Assembly (NCBI GenBank): GCA_020832415.1
Contig: JAFIES010000014.1
Span: forward strand, 1-32,911
DNA: 32,911 nucleotides
Direction: 5' to 3'
Origin: Balneolaceae bacterium
GTDB lineage: Bacteria > Bacteroidota > Rhodothermia > Balneolales > Balneolaceae
Made by a program: the position numbers and the translations under genes. The notes beneath the pieces are model-generated. The model saw only the letters and a program-made list of their open reading frames with translations, was not told the DNA's origin and searched no databases. Below, piece by piece: positions 18,854 to 30,172 of the stretch; the stretch's first letter is position 1; each line of letters opens with the position of its first letter.

Positions 18854-19120
18854 TTATGGGAAGAGATCATAAATATCTTTTCGATGAGCAACACGAACCA
18901 TTTCAAAAAAATCATCTTTAAAATATAAACCGATTCTGTAATCGCCAACCCGCAGCCGGTATGCACTCTTTTCTCCTTTAATTGCTTTGAGGTTGGTTAT
19001 TTTATCGAAAGATGGAGCAGATTCAATTTTCAGGATAGCTTTTTTAATTTTTTGGCGGGCCGATCTGTCTTTGATTTTAGATAAATCTTTCGTGAATGCT
19101 TTATGGAAGCGGACATTCAT
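18854..19120 (-). CDS. RelE/ParE-superfamily toxin
   Basis: The small basic 88-residue protein has the RelE/ParE fold signature: an early FHKAFTKDLSKIKDR helix, a central YRLRVGDYRIGLYF strand pair and a C-terminal VAHRKDIYDLFP. The Arg in the central strands and the His-Arg-Lys-Asp-Ile-Tyr tail are typical of mRNA-interferase RelE types, whereas ParE targets gyrase. The target here is not certain. The ATG overlaps the antitoxin stop by 4 nt (ATGA), giving translational coupling. Confidence 0.9.
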   Translation of the reverse strand: MNVRFHKAFTKDLSKIKDRSARQKIKKAILKIESAPSFDKITNLKAIKGEKSAYRLRVGDYRIGLYFKDDFFEMVRVAHRKDIYDLFP

Positions 19121-20170: not shown

Positions 20171-20623
20171 CTATTTTTGAATTTTCTTCAAAACTTTTTC
20201 TGAGGTTATTCGCCTTCGAATGGTCTCATCATCCGGTATGGCAGGGCGGTCCCGGTAACGGTCAACAATACATATAAACCCAAGCGGCTCATTGTTATCT
20301 GCATGGAATTGGTGGATGGTTTCCGGTGCTATAAAAACTACATCATGGTTGTTTAGTTCATGGAGATCATTTTCGAGAACCAGGGTACCCGATCCCCGGA
20401 TAATCACCACGCTATGCGGATGGCGGTGCAACTCGAGTGAAGAGTAACCGCCGGGCTGAATTTCGAAATATCGGGTTTCGGAGTTTAACGCGGAGATATC
20501 ATCAGCAAGAAGTGTGTAACGGTGGATGTCTTTAAAATTTTTGGTATCCGTTTTGTACTGTTTCCGCTCAACTCCATTCCAGGAGTAATTCTCAGCTTTT
20601 ATAACTTTTGATGTGTTACTCAT
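20171..20623 (-). CDS. cupin protein, candidate methylthioxylulose-5-phosphate sulfurylase
   Basis: This single-domain cupin has 150 residues. Metal-binding motif 1 supplies Glu64, His66, His68 and His70 in SSLELHRHPHSVV, and motif 2 supplies His104 in APETIHQFH. The C-terminal segment GFICIVDRYRDRP contains Cys118. Its ATG overlaps the stop of the RuBisCO-like gene by 8 nt, so the pair is translationally coupled. In R. rubrum a cupin paired with an RLP removes methanethiol from 1-methylthioxylulose-5-phosphate to give DXP. I infer that role here from the pairing and overall resemblance. A different sugar-phosphate substrate remains possible. Confidence 0.75.
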   Translation of the reverse strand: MSNTSKVIKAENYSWNGVERKQYKTDTKNFKDIHRYTLLADDISALNSETRYFEIQPGGYSSLELHRHPHSVVIIRGSGTLVLENDLHELNNHDVVFIAPETIHQFHADNNEPLGFICIVDRYRDRPAIPDDETIRRRITSEKVLKKIQK

Positions 20624-21728
20624 AACTCTTCAGAACGTTTTGAAATTTACTCGTGGCGGATTGCAGCCCATCCGGTTGCTTGTAAAGGCTGCCCCCAATC
20701 AGGTAGATCGTATCATTACCATAGTATGAAAGCTCCTCATCGAGGCTGTGAAGGTTAATACCACCGGCTGGAGTGGGGAAGGATGATTTAAATCCAAGAA
20801 ACTCTGTTCTCAGGTTATCATTTATCTCCCCGCAGGTTTTTCTTGTGAATGAGAACCGGCCGCCTGCATTGGGATAAATTACGGCATCAGCTCCCAAAGC
20901 TCTCCATAATGTGCCATAATAGAGTTGTGGTGTAAATCCATGTGTGGGATGGATAACAAAAGAGCCGGAAAAAGCAGGGTGAGCCATTACCGGGATATGA
21001 CCCCGGTTTGAGAGCGTATGCAGCATCTCAATACCTGTTAACTGGGGTGAGATCAAAACACCGTCTGCGCCAAGTTCAACAGCTTCGTGGAATCTGTCTA
21101 ACACGTAAGCGGGAGATGTTGTGATATTCGGGAAGTAGAGTGTTTTTTTTCCTGATACTTGTTCTCCCATTCTAACTGCCTGAATACACGCAGAAACCCT
21201 GGCACGGAAATCAGCCGATTTCTGATTGGCCAGGCCATGATCGTCTTTGATCAAATCGATACCGCCCATTGTAAATTGATAGGCATTCTCTGCAAGTTCG
21301 CCCGGAGATAGCCCGATTGGCTTCAAAGCCGTACAGCTGAGGGCTCTGTTGGGTACATTTAGTTTTTTTCTGATTCCTTTGATACCAAATTCCGGCCCGT
21401 GAAAATGTTCTCTGAATGCCTCCTGCCCAATATCAATCAGCTTGATATTGTGAAGCATGGAGATATTGCCAAAGAGAACATTGATAAGTTGTGTGATGTC
21501 ACCATCAAACAGAGTTTTTGGATAGGAGAGAGTAGTGTCCCAAAGATTTTCTTCTGCCTGCGTGATTTCTATAATATCAGGCAGTGAAGGTTTACCTGAT
21601 TTCGGCACAGCTTCAAGCGGCATCTCTACCGATTGTTCTGTACCGATTTTTTCAGCAAACAGGGCTGCATCATCTTCTGAACCGGCTGAAATCCGGTATG
21701 TGATTATAAAGTGTGCAGCATTTTCCAT
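20616..21728 (-). CDS. RuBisCO-like protein (form IV)
   Basis: The 370-residue protein has the RuBisCO large-subunit fold but is shorter than the 460-480 residues of true RuBisCO. Lys136 in CTALKPIGLSP corresponds to the base Lys175, but the following Lys177 position is Ile. Lys161 in IKDDHGLANQ corresponds to the carbamylated Lys201, with Asp163 kept and the Glu ligand replaced by His164. The loop-6 lysine is absent; the region reads YPNAGGRFSF. AGGI (321-324) and GGS (345-347) look like the phosphate-binding loops. Carboxylation is therefore unlikely. TEQSVEMPLEAV near residue 30 and KDDHGLA recall the R. rubrum methylthioribulose-1-phosphate isomerase group. It starts 7 nt after purA. Confidence 0.88.
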   Translation of the reverse strand: MENAAHFIITYRISAGSEDDAALFAEKIGTEQSVEMPLEAVPKSGKPSLPDIIEITQAEENLWDTTLSYPKTLFDGDITQLINVLFGNISMLHNIKLIDIGQEAFREHFHGPEFGIKGIRKKLNVPNRALSCTALKPIGLSPGELAENAYQFTMGGIDLIKDDHGLANQKSADFRARVSACIQAVRMGEQVSGKKTLYFPNITTSPAYVLDRFHEAVELGADGVLISPQLTGIEMLHTLSNRGHIPVMAHPAFSGSFVIHPTHGFTPQLYYGTLWRALGADAVIYPNAGGRFSFTRKTCGEINDNLRTEFLGFKSSFPTPAGGINLHSLDEELSYYGNDTIYLIGGSLYKQPDGLQSATSKFQNVLKSYE

Positions 21729-26373: not shown

Positions 26374-26931
26374 CTAAGGAGCGTTGATACTGGTTCCACC
26401 GGCAAGTGGTATCAAAGCAATAGAGGTGATGTTGCCGATAAATAACGATGTAGCAGAAAATAGAGAGCCATTTTTATGAACATCGGCCGATGGAATGGAT
26501 ACTGAATGAAATGAATTGGCCGAAAGCCACTTGTAAAACGGTTTTGGAAACTCAGGCAATATAGCATTGGTGCCTGTTTTGTGTGTTTCAAACACATTCC
26601 ACTGGCCAATCAGCCAGGATGAAGCAGACCGCTCTTCCGGATCAGAAAATGAGAATTGAATCCTGAAATCATCTTTATGGTCGGCCACAAGCCGTGATGC
26701 CTGCTGCACCAGTACCCAAAAGTCGTTTGACTGTTCGGGCAGTTGGCGGATGGAGTTTCTGAGCTTGGTTTCACTCTCATTCCCCGAGGCAACCACATTG
26801 TGATTGAGCCATTGAGTAAACGCATTTTTCTTGGCCTGGCTGGAGAATGGTTGTGCCAGATGGGCAACAAAACCTGCCATGACCAATGCTATGGTAAGTG
26901 ACCGAAGGATATGTGAAAATCTGCTTTTCAT
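26374..26931 (-). CDS. hypothetical exported protein
   Basis: I do not recognise a family. The ATG at 26931 gives 185 residues starting with a membrane-type segment (MKSRFSHILRSLTIALVMAG), probably a signal peptide or anchor. An ATG at 26970 would add 13 residues with no family support. The body is mixed: a helical part with QWLNHNVVASGN, a strand segment FRIQFSFSDPEERSASSWLIGQW, and a hydrophobic Gly-Ile-rich C-terminus that could be a second membrane helix (SLFIGNITSIALIPLAGG). It is alone between uvrA and secD, same strand as both. Confidence 0.6.
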   Translation of the reverse strand: MKSRFSHILRSLTIALVMAGFVAHLAQPFSSQAKKNAFTQWLNHNVVASGNESETKLRNSIRQLPEQSNDFWVLVQQASRLVADHKDDFRIQFSFSDPEERSASSWLIGQWNVFETHKTGTNAILPEFPKPFYKWLSANSFHSVSIPSADVHKNGSLFSATSLFIGNITSIALIPLAGGTSINAP

Positions 26932-27319
26932 CAGAACGGTAAAAATAGGCAGAAAGCAACCTGTTGACAAACTTTATTTATCACCATGGTTTGTAAACGG
27001 ATGGCCGTTTCAATTAATTATTCTGGTACATAACTATTCAAAACTTTTGAGTTTATTAAATAGATTCGTTTCTGTACAATCAGAATAGATATTTTAACAG
27101 ACTGGAAATGTATCCGTCTACATAATTCTCGCAGAGGTACGCAGAAGGTTGCGCTGAGGTTCGCCAGACTTTGATTTGTGAGTTCACCTTCAGCGTTCGT
27201 CTGCGAGTTCGTCCGTGACCGTCTGCGAGAAACATAAAACCCCTCAGTAATGACAAAACTCTAACGGGTATATACATTAAAATTCAGTTTCCCGTTTTGA
27301 ATAGTCTTGATCCTTATAT
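26932..27319. other. intergenic region between uvrA and the exported protein
   Basis: No gene is seen in these 388 bases. The part next to the exported-protein gene is AT-rich and probably carries its promoter. The part next to uvrA holds the palindromic repeat listed separately at 27126-27231. Confidence 0.6.
27126..27231. repeat. 106-bp imperfect palindromic element with 10-bp terminal inverted repeats
   Basis: TTCTCGCAGA at 27126-27135 is exactly inverted as TCTGCGAGAA at 27222-27231. Within the left half, related units of about 11 nt recur (CGCAGAGGTA, CGCAGAAGGTT, GCGCTGAGGTT, CGCCAGAC), and related units occur in reverse orientation in the right half. It is GC-richer than its surroundings and non-coding. 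It resembles interspersed palindromic or MITE-like repeats. Copy number elsewhere cannot be seen from this window. Confidence 0.6.
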
Positions 27320-30172
27320 TTAAACGGTTGCTTTATCGCTGATTCGGCTTTTTTCTCTGTCGAACTCAAGTTTCAGATATTTGCCTGTATAGCTGCCATC
27401 TTTTTCTGCTACCTCTTCCGGGGTGCCCTCCGCAATAATCTCTCCACCACCATTTCCCCCTTCAGGGCCAAGGTCGATAATCCAGTCGGCCGCTTTGATC
27501 AGATCGAGGTTATGCTCAATCACAATCACGGTATTTCCTTTCTCAACCAGTTTTTGGATTACATCCACAAGCATTCGCACATCCTGAAAGTGGAGCCCGG
27601 TAGTGGGTTCATCCATGATGTAAACTGTGTCGCCCGTCCCGATTTTTGAGAGCTCTCTTGAAAGCTTTATTCGCTGTGCTTCACCGCCGCTAAGCGTGGT
27701 GCTCGACTGGCCCAGTGTAAGATACCCCAGGCCTACAGAGTTCAGCGTTTTAAGTTTTCGTTTGATGGAAGGTACTGAATCAAAAAAATCAGCTGCATCG
27801 CTTACAGGCATTTGTAGTACGTCTGATATATTTTTGCCTTTGTAATGAATTTCGAGTGTTTCTCTATTGTACCGTTTACCATTACAATTTTCACAGTTTA
27901 CGTAGACATCCGGCAGAAAATTCATCTCAATTTTTCGAACGCCATCACCCTGGCAGGTTTCGCAACGCCCGCCTTTTACGTTGAAAGAAAAACGTCCCTG
28001 ATCATACCCTCTGATTTTTGACTCGGGAAGCTCAGCAAAAAGAGAGCGGATATGGTCAAAAACTTTAGTGTAAGTTCCTGGATTGGATCGAGGGGTACGC
28101 CCGATAGGGCTCTGGTCGATCGAAATTACCTTGTCTACATGATTGAGCCCTTCAACTTTTCGGTAGGGAAGGGGCACTGCTTTTGAGTTATAAAACTCAC
28201 TGGAAAGAATGGGTGTTAAGGTTTGGTTGATGAGAGAACTTTTTCCGCTGCCACTCACACCGGTTACAGCAATAAATTTTCCGAGAGGAATCTCCAGGGT
28301 AACATCTTTCAGGTTGTGGCCGGTGGCATTTTTAACCTTAATTTTTTTACCGCTCCCTTTGCGCCTTTTTTCGGGATAGGGAATTACCTCTTCATCCTTC
28401 AGAAATCTTGTGGTCATCGAGGTGGGGTCCAGATCATCGGGTTTTCCCTCTGTGACGATAAATCCACCCTCAGTACCGGCTCCGGGGCCAAGATCAACCA
28501 CATAATCAGCGTGCTCGATAGTTTCGCGATCGTGCTCAACCACAATTACACTGTTCCCCAGATCGCGCAGGGTTTCCAGGGATTGTATCAGTTTGATGTT
28601 ATCCCTCTGATGAAGGCCAATACTCGGCTCGTCCAGTATGTAGAGAACTCCAACCAATTGTGTGCCTATTTGGGTAGCCAGGCGAATTCGCTGTGCCTCG
28701 CCACCGCTCAGAGTCTGTGCTTCGCGATCGAGTGAGAGATAATTGAGACCTACATTCAGCAGGAAATCGATTCGGTCAATTACTTCTTTTAAAACCTGCT
28801 GGCCAATTATTCGCTGCCGTTCGGTCAGTTTTAAATTACCAACCGTTTTTCGGAGCGTACTGATATCCTGCACAACAAGATCACGGATGGTATACCCATC
28901 TATTTTATAAGAGAGCGCCTCTTTGTTGAGGCGGCCGCCATCGCAGGCCGGGCAGGTTATCTTCGATAAAAATGCTTTTGCTTTGTCCCGCTGTTTGTTT
29001 GATTTGCTCTCTTCATACTGCTCCCGGATAATCGCTTTAAGGCCGGTGAAGCGATGTTTATAAGTGACGTTGTTATTTTTAAAATCGTAACTGATGTTAA
29101 ACTTTTTATCCCCGCCACCTTCAAAAAGAAGGTCCATTGCCTCATCAGAGAAGCTGTCGACAGGCATGTTGAAATCGTGATTTACACTATCGAGTACGGC
29201 TTTTAACTGTTTGAAGACAAAAATATCCCTCGGTTCACCCAAAAACCGAATGGCACCTTCATTGATACTCTGCTCCGGGTTTTGAATCACAAGATTACGG
29301 TTTACATCATATCGGTATCCCAATCCATTGCACTTTTTACACGCACCAAATGGGGAGTTGAATGAGAACAGATTTGGAGCTGGATCTTCATAAGACAGTC
29401 CGCTCTCAGGATCATACAGATTTTTAGAAAAGACCTGATCGCGTATCTGGCCGGCTTCCTGTATTCCAAGGATCAGGTTGCCATCAGCCATTTCGAGAGC
29501 AAGATGAACGCTTTCTGAGATTCGATTCTTGCTTTTTTCAGAGATGATAAACCGGTCAACCACAACTTCAATATTGTGTGTTTTATAGCGATCGAGTTTA
29601 ATTTCGCCTTCCAGGTCAATCAGATTGCCATCAACCCGGGCTTTTATATAGCCCTGTTTCTGCATCTGCTCAAAAAGCTCTCTGTAATGCCCTTTTCGCC
29701 CGCGCACAACAGGTGCCAGACAGTAAGCTTTGGTTCCTTCCGGCAGATTCATGATAGTTTGCACAATCTGATCGGAGGTCTGCTTGGCCATCTTGTTACC
29801 CGATATGTAGGAATAAGGAACTCCAATACGGGCATAGAGAAGCCTCAGAAAATCATAAATTTCGGTAACTGTACCAACCGTTGAGCGCGGATTTCGGTTG
29901 GTGGTTTTTTGATCGATGGAAATAACCGGTGAGAGTCCGTCTATAAAATCTACATCGGGGCGTTCCATCATCCCCAAAAACTGCCTGGCGTAGGCAGAGA
30001 GTGATTCCAGAAAACGGCGCTGCCCCTCGGCATAGATGGTATCAAAAGCGAGAGAAGATTTGCCTGAACCCGAAAGGCCGGTAAAAACTACCAGCTGCTC
30101 TCTGGGTATGTTGATGTCGATGTTTTTTAAGTTGTGCTCGCGTGCTCCGCGAATAACGATATGTTCCTGCAA
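27320..30172 (-). CDS. uvrA: excinuclease ABC subunit UvrA
   Basis: UvrA is the damage-sensing ATPase of nucleotide excision repair. The 950-residue protein has two ABC modules. The first Walker A GLSGSGKS lies at 32-39 and the second GVSGSGKS near 640, each paired with an LSGGEAQRI signature and a DEPSIGLH or DEPTTGLH Walker B region. CxxC zinc pairs are visible in [20 protein letters not shown] and [17 protein letters not shown]. The length is normal. It is alone in its transcription unit. I see no SOS-type operator upstream that I could defend. Confidence 0.97.

Follow-up and report, generated by a model that had tools for sequence, protein, structure and literature searches.

The locus raises a simple question: what is a palindrome doing in the gap downstream of a probable uvrA gene in a Balneolaceae bacterium, and how did it get there? 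The window, by which we mean the whole 32,911-nucleotide stretch of DNA analysed, has a gap at 26971-27319 that contains a core palindrome at 27126..27231 (106 bp, not assigned to a strand). It consists of two inverted arms, each with four phased CGCNGA-type units. Units of the 5' arm (27126..27168, forward strand) lie at 27130, 27140, 27152 and 27162, and those of the 3' arm (27189..27231, reverse strand) at 27227, 27217, 27205 and 27195. An initial annotation had described exact 10-bp terminal inverted repeats around two arms of related, degenerate 11-nt CGCAGA-type units. The terminal repeats are indeed exact, with TTCTCGCAGA (27126-27135) the reverse complement of 27222-27231, and the related units are present in both arms, four in each; 11 nt is an average only, because both arms are spaced 10/12/10. 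The palindrome is GC-rich in an AT-rich gap as annotated (GC 0.55 versus 0.30 in the remainder), and the best 22-nt inverted arms of the gap matched at 19 of 22 positions, compared with at most 16 in 60 shuffles. Folding of both strands, which had been proposed as a check, gave z-scores of -2.8 and -3.1. No ORF of at least 80 aa overlaps 27126-27231, in keeping with the annotated absence of a coding role, and a coding function was rejected on this ground.

The palindrome was also suggested to be perhaps one copy of a mobile or structural repeat family, and our searches support this: it belongs to a dispersed family. Searching the same genome with 27100-27260 returned 11 DNA matches including the window; the ten others represent nine other places, one match having been reported on both strands. 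This self-search had been suggested at the outset, and the outcome that was to speak against a family, the lack of any further copy, did not occur. We built a covariance model of the family, R1, from 13 copies; the window palindrome scores 116 bits and was itself among the training sequences. R1 gave 17 matches in the same genome, which reduce to 11 distinct places, window included, because some places match on both strands. Matches were found in 14 of 28 genomes of the genus, which we infer to be Rhodohalobacter, and sequence-related palindromes occur in other genera, especially Hymenobacter. Few genomes carry the exact CTCGCAGAG pattern (6 of 395 sampled from the phylum, five of them in the genus of the window), which counts against the explanation that we favour below. 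At 37 gene-less palindromes from other genomes with TTCTCGC...GCGAGAA-type edges, the proposed inspection for target duplications detected none (mean flank match 0.22, versus 0.27 in shuffled pairings), and no palindromic target sites were found among them. Some copies have unusual surroundings: gene-less palindromes stand in tandem with a period of roughly 220 bp in a Balneolaceae MAG (L171, 5380-6120), and low-complexity runs, for example CCTCACCCTCACTCTC and GTGAAACGTGAGACG-like stretches, adjoin half palindromes in L029 and L035 (both G004).

We then compared the site of the window palindrome with those of relatives. It adjoins an ORF on the reverse strand (27320..30172) that we take from its sequence to be uvrA; the next gene on this strand is a 198-aa ORF (26374..26970). 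DNA matches to uvrA were present in 30 of 30 genomes, and among 19 uvrA loci (L072-L090) the R1 palindrome was found at its own locus only and in no relative. Among 16 relatives, 10 have a motif of the 198-aa ORF on the downstream side of uvrA; for two of the remaining six, the script found no uvrA stop. The distance from uvrA to the next gene is 508 bp in the window's genome, 191-308 bp in nine relatives and 886 bp in one, and the sites in relatives have diverged too far for the junction to be placed to the base. By these sequence comparisons, the palindrome after uvrA is an insertion that is absent there in relatives. Elsewhere in the window, by eye, an ORF at 20616-21728 resembles a RuBisCO-like protein and an 88-aa ORF at 18854-19120 resembles a RelE/ParE-type toxin.

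The annotated span of 27126-27231 is right for the core but not for the inserted piece, which is a 281-bp MITE-like composite at 27029..27309 (no strand) with CA...TG ends and a second, outer pair of inverted repeats. The left outer repeat (27029..27044, forward strand), CATAACTATTCAAAAC, is a diverged form of CANNACTGTCCAAAAC, the outer inverted end of better preserved copies in the same genome. It pairs with the right outer repeat (27294..27309, reverse strand), 27033-27044 and 27294-27305 matching at 12 of 12 positions in inverted orientation, and the uvrA stop codon lies 10 bp from the right end of the composite. The window composite has flank sequence in common with the copies C12, C18, C41, C10 and C28, and these five together with C124 make a set of six copies in this genome that have sequence next to the palindrome in common. 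Part of the left side is missing from C41 and C10, and C12 has no recognisable right end. The composite contains no ORF of at least 80 aa, and hence no transposase gene, and by eye no target site duplication was seen beside the aligned copies. In the congener G019, the left end has six exact matches and the right end seven matches with two mismatches; all lie within about 260 bp of contig ends, which suggests recent multiplication. G019 also carries an IS4-family element (L062) with a 394-aa transposase that contains DDE_Tnp_1 and DUF4372 (NF033592, 260 bits; cut-off 115). CTGTCCAAAACGTTT is found at both ends of this element and at the left end of the G019 MITE, the right end of which differs by one base; the window outer ends (CTATTCAAAAC) are more diverged than those of G019. 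Given the similarity to the ends of the G019 IS4-family element, we take the outer layer to be, most likely, an IS4-type MITE, which most likely brought the palindrome to its site beside uvrA. By eye, a comparable arrangement is seen in L167 and L185 (both Hymenobacter sp. IS2118), L237 and L241, where gene-less palindromes lie inside a different shared flank with ends like GACTTACGCA...TGCGTAAGTC and appear wrapped in another MITE-like element, a nesting as in the window.

The outer ends and the link to a gene that we describe next go beyond the initial annotation, which covered the core only. We scanned one genome per species (84,980 species) with TTCTCGCAGAGKTNCGCAGA and obtained at least 117 matching stretches. 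By title, 80 of these comprise 24 from Hymenobacter, 13 from Balneolaceae, 41 from other Bacteroidota and, as the remaining two, a Gammaproteobacteria MAG and an archaeon. The 117 listed loci were chosen by palindrome sequence alone, and 15 of them contain a gene for a GxxExxY protein, and 14 of these 15 genes lie within 300 bp of the pattern, compared with a mean of 3.3 and a maximum of 11 for random positions; three of the 15 (L182, L221 and L228) correspond to the Rhodohalobacter genes of L016, L028 and L014. Inverted pattern pairs were also collected from the listed loci by spacing, with at most three mismatches allowed; one locus can contribute several pairs. None of 69 pairs less than 150 bp apart encloses a GxxExxY gene, compared with 17 of 22 pairs that are 350-700 bp apart. 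Other spacings total five: four pairs at 150-350 bp, one with a GxxExxY gene, and one at 1396 bp without a gene. The five pairs with gene-like spacing but no GxxExxY gene, all in L171 and L190, count against the link, and no GxxExxY remnant was found in either locus. Typically, four forward units precede the gene and four reverse units follow it, as in L152 (units at -78, -68, -56 and -46, and at 354, 364, 376 and 386). R1 matched on both sides of GxxExxY genes in G002:C3, G004:C229 and G012:C210, in addition to the window palindrome. No other gene emerged as a usual partner among ORFs of 70-190 aa: the 54 within 300 bp of palindromes, from listed loci that lack GxxExxY, matched 26 Pfam families, none of which recurred.

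In the window's own genome, an R1 palindrome at 10624-10734 of contig C2 lies 26 bp from a stretch encoding a C-terminal GxxExxY remnant. Its 21 residues, the last of the protein, are identical to the C terminus of the intact GxxExxY protein of G002, whose gene has R1 palindromes on both sides. In the window's genome we found this remnant but no intact GxxExxY gene flanked by CTCGCAGAGG-type arrays, which weighs against the link; its five other GxxExxY genes have other repeats or no clear ones.

We next reversed the survey and started from the gene. When 247 genomes sampled from the phylum were searched for the Pfam family PF13366, 122 proved to contain it. From the match list we assembled 95 loci, regardless of their flanks: 6 rows from the window's genome, where a single split gene accounts for two, 29 taken from the search and 60 fetched in addition (52 from further genomes and 8 second copies). 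Inverted repeats were scored between the 250 bp upstream and the 250 bp downstream of each gene. In 76 of 94 usable loci, which are partly non-independent (orthologous pairs, and the split gene counted twice), the score exceeded the 95th percentile of 1200 shifted controls, and in 63 of 94 the 99th; the 18 loci not above the 95th percentile count against the link. When 111 neighbouring ORFs from these stretches served as controls, 40 of 59 loci exceeded the 95th percentile and 18 of 59 the 99th. The repeats differ between lineages, and many have a common grammar of units such as CACAGAG, CGCAAAG, CACGGAT and CACGAAG about 10-12 bp apart. Phased CRCNRAK units with at least two good spacings stood on both sides of the gene at 14 of 94 loci when sought in the right orientation, and at 1 of 94 when sought in the wrong one; with at least one good spacing, the numbers were 34 and 9. 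That the strict test picks out only 14 of 94 loci is again a point against. Around Y1_Tnp genes, phased CRCNRAK units on both sides were absent in either orientation (0 of 29 loci; 30 were taken and one was too short).

By sequence, gene and arrays behave as a mobile unit, and similarity between units at unrelated sites ends at the repeats in most pairs. From 152 GxxExxY records we obtained 81 pairs with alignments that span the whole gene, unrelated flanks and clear repeats in both members; in 78 of these the alignment ends no more than 10 bp past the repeat edges, and in three it extends further. The L152/L154 alignment, for example, extends 54 and 45 bp and reaches both edges (54 and 45), and that of L353/L359 extends 54 and 30 bp, with edges at 61 and 32. 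Many of the 78 end short of the repeat edge because identity is only 64-79%. Orthologous sites, such as L353/L366, align over more than 1 kb. Some part of a 2-kb query around L353 matched in 70 of 80 genomes of its family. The site is short or empty in the relatives L392, L399, L403 and L407; its flanks are adjacent or nearly so in, among others, G466 (79 bp between them), G482 (83 bp), G447 and G448, and unit-like copies occur elsewhere in G179, G468, G483, G488, G490 and G187. At the L353 site, G179 (L396) has two gene-less palindromes in tandem (score 15.0; shuffles at most 12.5) and G461 (L397) has one (15.0; shuffles at most 10.0), for which no BLAST match to the L353 unit was found. A gene-less palindrome seen by eye at this site in G432 (L414) was dropped, as it scored 7.5 and shuffles reached 9.5. 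L437 (G465:C87) is a junction of 101 bp from the left end with 98 bp from the right; L439 (G195:C12) is a solo palindrome. Two GxxExxY genes stand in tandem in L297 and in L342, with DNA identities of 94% and 92%, respectively.

Arrays also follow the protein that they bracket. Protein identity correlated with arm similarity across 104 records (r = 0.35, 5296 of 5356 pairs after those with homologous flanks or from the same locus were dropped; matched in 0 of 999 permutations), a correlation to which composition and taxonomy could contribute. Within genomes the correlation was r = 0.55 (58 pairs, 19 genomes), and none of 4999 shuffles reached it, the largest being 0.52.

The bracketed gene encodes a clear member of TIGR04256 and PF13366 (PDDEXK_3), scoring 142.9 and 146.3 bits where the cut-off is 35. 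D67, E77 and K79, which make up the D-X9-ExK pattern of PD-(D/E)XK nucleases, are invariant in 12 GxxExxY proteins. An AlphaFold2 model (pLDDT 90.9) looks nuclease-like, with weak fold matches: a fold search found no match at E <=0.001 (best E 1.4e-3), and the best neighbours, at middling scores, were SSO0001 (4ic1, Z 8.7), which we take to be of Cas4 type, and archaeal Hjc (Z 6.7). Eight plasmid records carry GxxExxY genes, with Gemmatimonadota, Spirochaetota and Fusobacteriota among the phyla, and six, none of them among the loci above, were examined for flanking repeats, each against 20 controls. Scores and largest control values were 54 and 21.5 for Gemmatirosa, 22.5 and 12.0 for Bacteroides, 18 and 12.5 for Bernardetia, 12.0 and 11.5 for Fusobacteria, 11.0 and 12.0 for Treponema, and 8.5 and 13.0 for Sphingomonas; three loci are therefore clear, one is marginal and two, which count against the association, are not above control. 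The Sphingomonas gene (L432, 2983-3411), without flanking inverted repeats, sits on an 880-kb plasmid with fabD and fabG as its neighbours and is perhaps a domesticated copy.

We propose, with a probability of roughly 0.7, that the palindrome is a gene-less, REPIN- or MITE-like derivative of a mobile unit composed of a gene for a GxxExxY PD-(D/E)XK nuclease and the phased arrays that bracket it. Comparison of sequences established the bracketing, the unit edges, the different insertion sites, the empty sites, the gene-less derivatives and the co-variation of array and protein; the nuclease itself presumably binds, cuts or moves the arrays. The whole unit would comprise a forward array upstream, the GxxExxY gene and a reverse array downstream, each of phased units of about 11 bp, and upon loss of the gene the two arrays would come together as a palindrome of about 60-120 bp. 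The nuclease may recognise an array by its four units, which recur about once per helical turn, perhaps in DNA extruded as a hairpin or cruciform, and cutting at the ends would spread its own unit as well as gene-less copies without target duplication. That GxxExxY drives this movement is, we believe, the best-supported reading. Tentatively, and at slightly less than even odds, GxxExxY proteins might be what moves a whole class of transposable elements unrelated to the DDE, HUH, serine and tyrosine systems, in which a PD-(D/E)XK nuclease reads phased arrays, inserts without target duplication and seeds gene-less palindromes.

Several other readings have to be set against this one. The palindrome could be nothing but internal filler in a 281-bp non-autonomous element that an IS4-family transposase mobilises in trans; the 12/12 outer ends, the flank common to six copies and the end copies and IS4-family element of G019 that share CTGTCCAAAACGTTT all fit, and the window copy could have moved solely as such cargo. 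This explains how the window copy last moved but does not explain the palindrome, which occurs without these ends in L007-L010 and in other genera and the arms of which bracket GxxExxY genes, so that the reading is already insufficient and, as a full account, unlikely. A structural RNA or terminator, acting as a hairpin downstream of uvrA, would agree with folding better than shuffles and with the position next to the uvrA stop, and the palindrome may have a side effect on the uvrA mRNA. As its origin we consider this very improbable: the palindrome is absent in relatives, an Rfam search with it gave no match, and among the 13 copies the covariation term is +1.4, with two-sided change in only 2 of 25 pairs, so unit sequence rather than pairing appears to be kept.

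Two further readings accept a mobile repeat and assign it to another agent. Dispersal without target duplication is also what a REP or REPIN moved by a RAYT/TIRYT (Y1_Tnp, HUH) transposase would show; the window's genome has four Y1_Tnp matches, one Y1_Tnp gene is among the 54 small ORFs near palindromes, and Y1_Tnp genes are flanked by inverted repeats of their own kind (14 of 29 above 12.75). The four Y1_Tnp genes have no R1 palindrome nearby, however, and the Y1_Tnp loci lack phased units on both sides as noted above; we regard such a transposase as a highly improbable mover. By eye, no GTAG or CGTC tag was visible at the TTCTCGC...GCGAGAA ends. The likeliest of these rivals, which we still hold to be doubtful, makes GxxExxY a passenger or a gene of genome defence and lets the arrays spread by other means, such as host repair or array recombination. 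Its catalysis is putative, arrays vary greatly between lineages, and the tandem gene-less palindromes of L171 suggest recombination or slippage. Against this, array sequence follows protein sequence, within genomes too, and the 54 other ORFs of 70-190 aa offer no Pfam family in more than one member.

A mobile GxxExxY unit with gene-less derivatives would give one explanation for two things that usually go unexplained, the scattered intergenic palindromes of CGCAGAG, CACAGAG or CACGGAT type and the common GxxExxY proteins, and suggests that the gene and its repeats are an overlooked kind of mobile element. If true, it would be a second, independently evolved partnership like that of REP and RAYT, built on a different nuclease fold. 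In the open-access PMC literature we found no bacterial work on the exact unit strings, no description of palindromic repeats with a nuclease in Bacteroidetes and none of a link between GxxExxY and palindromes; we claim no wider novelty.

Each component has known counterparts. IS4-family MITEs (DDE_Tnp_1 with DUF4372) resemble the composite family in its outer ends, which match those of the congener's element, but the inner palindrome is also found without such ends and in other genera. The bracketed gene belongs clearly to the known GxxExxY family (TIGR04256/PF13366, PDDEXK_3), which the excerpts of the literature that we found mention in passing and not as mobile or palindrome-linked. The REP/REPIN-RAYT systems (TnpA_REP), REPtrons and TIRtrons share dispersed intergenic palindromes, gene-less copies and one small, bracketed DNA-processing gene, and the nearest known layout, from the part of the source available to us, is that of TIRtrons (PMC3733652). 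RAYT is an HUH/Y1 enzyme whereas GxxExxY is a PD-(D/E)XK nuclease, and GxxExxY arms consist of four phased units of about 11 bp, in contrast to the Y1_Tnp loci. The layout has precedents in REP/RAYT and TIRtrons, from which the enzyme family and the array grammar differ.
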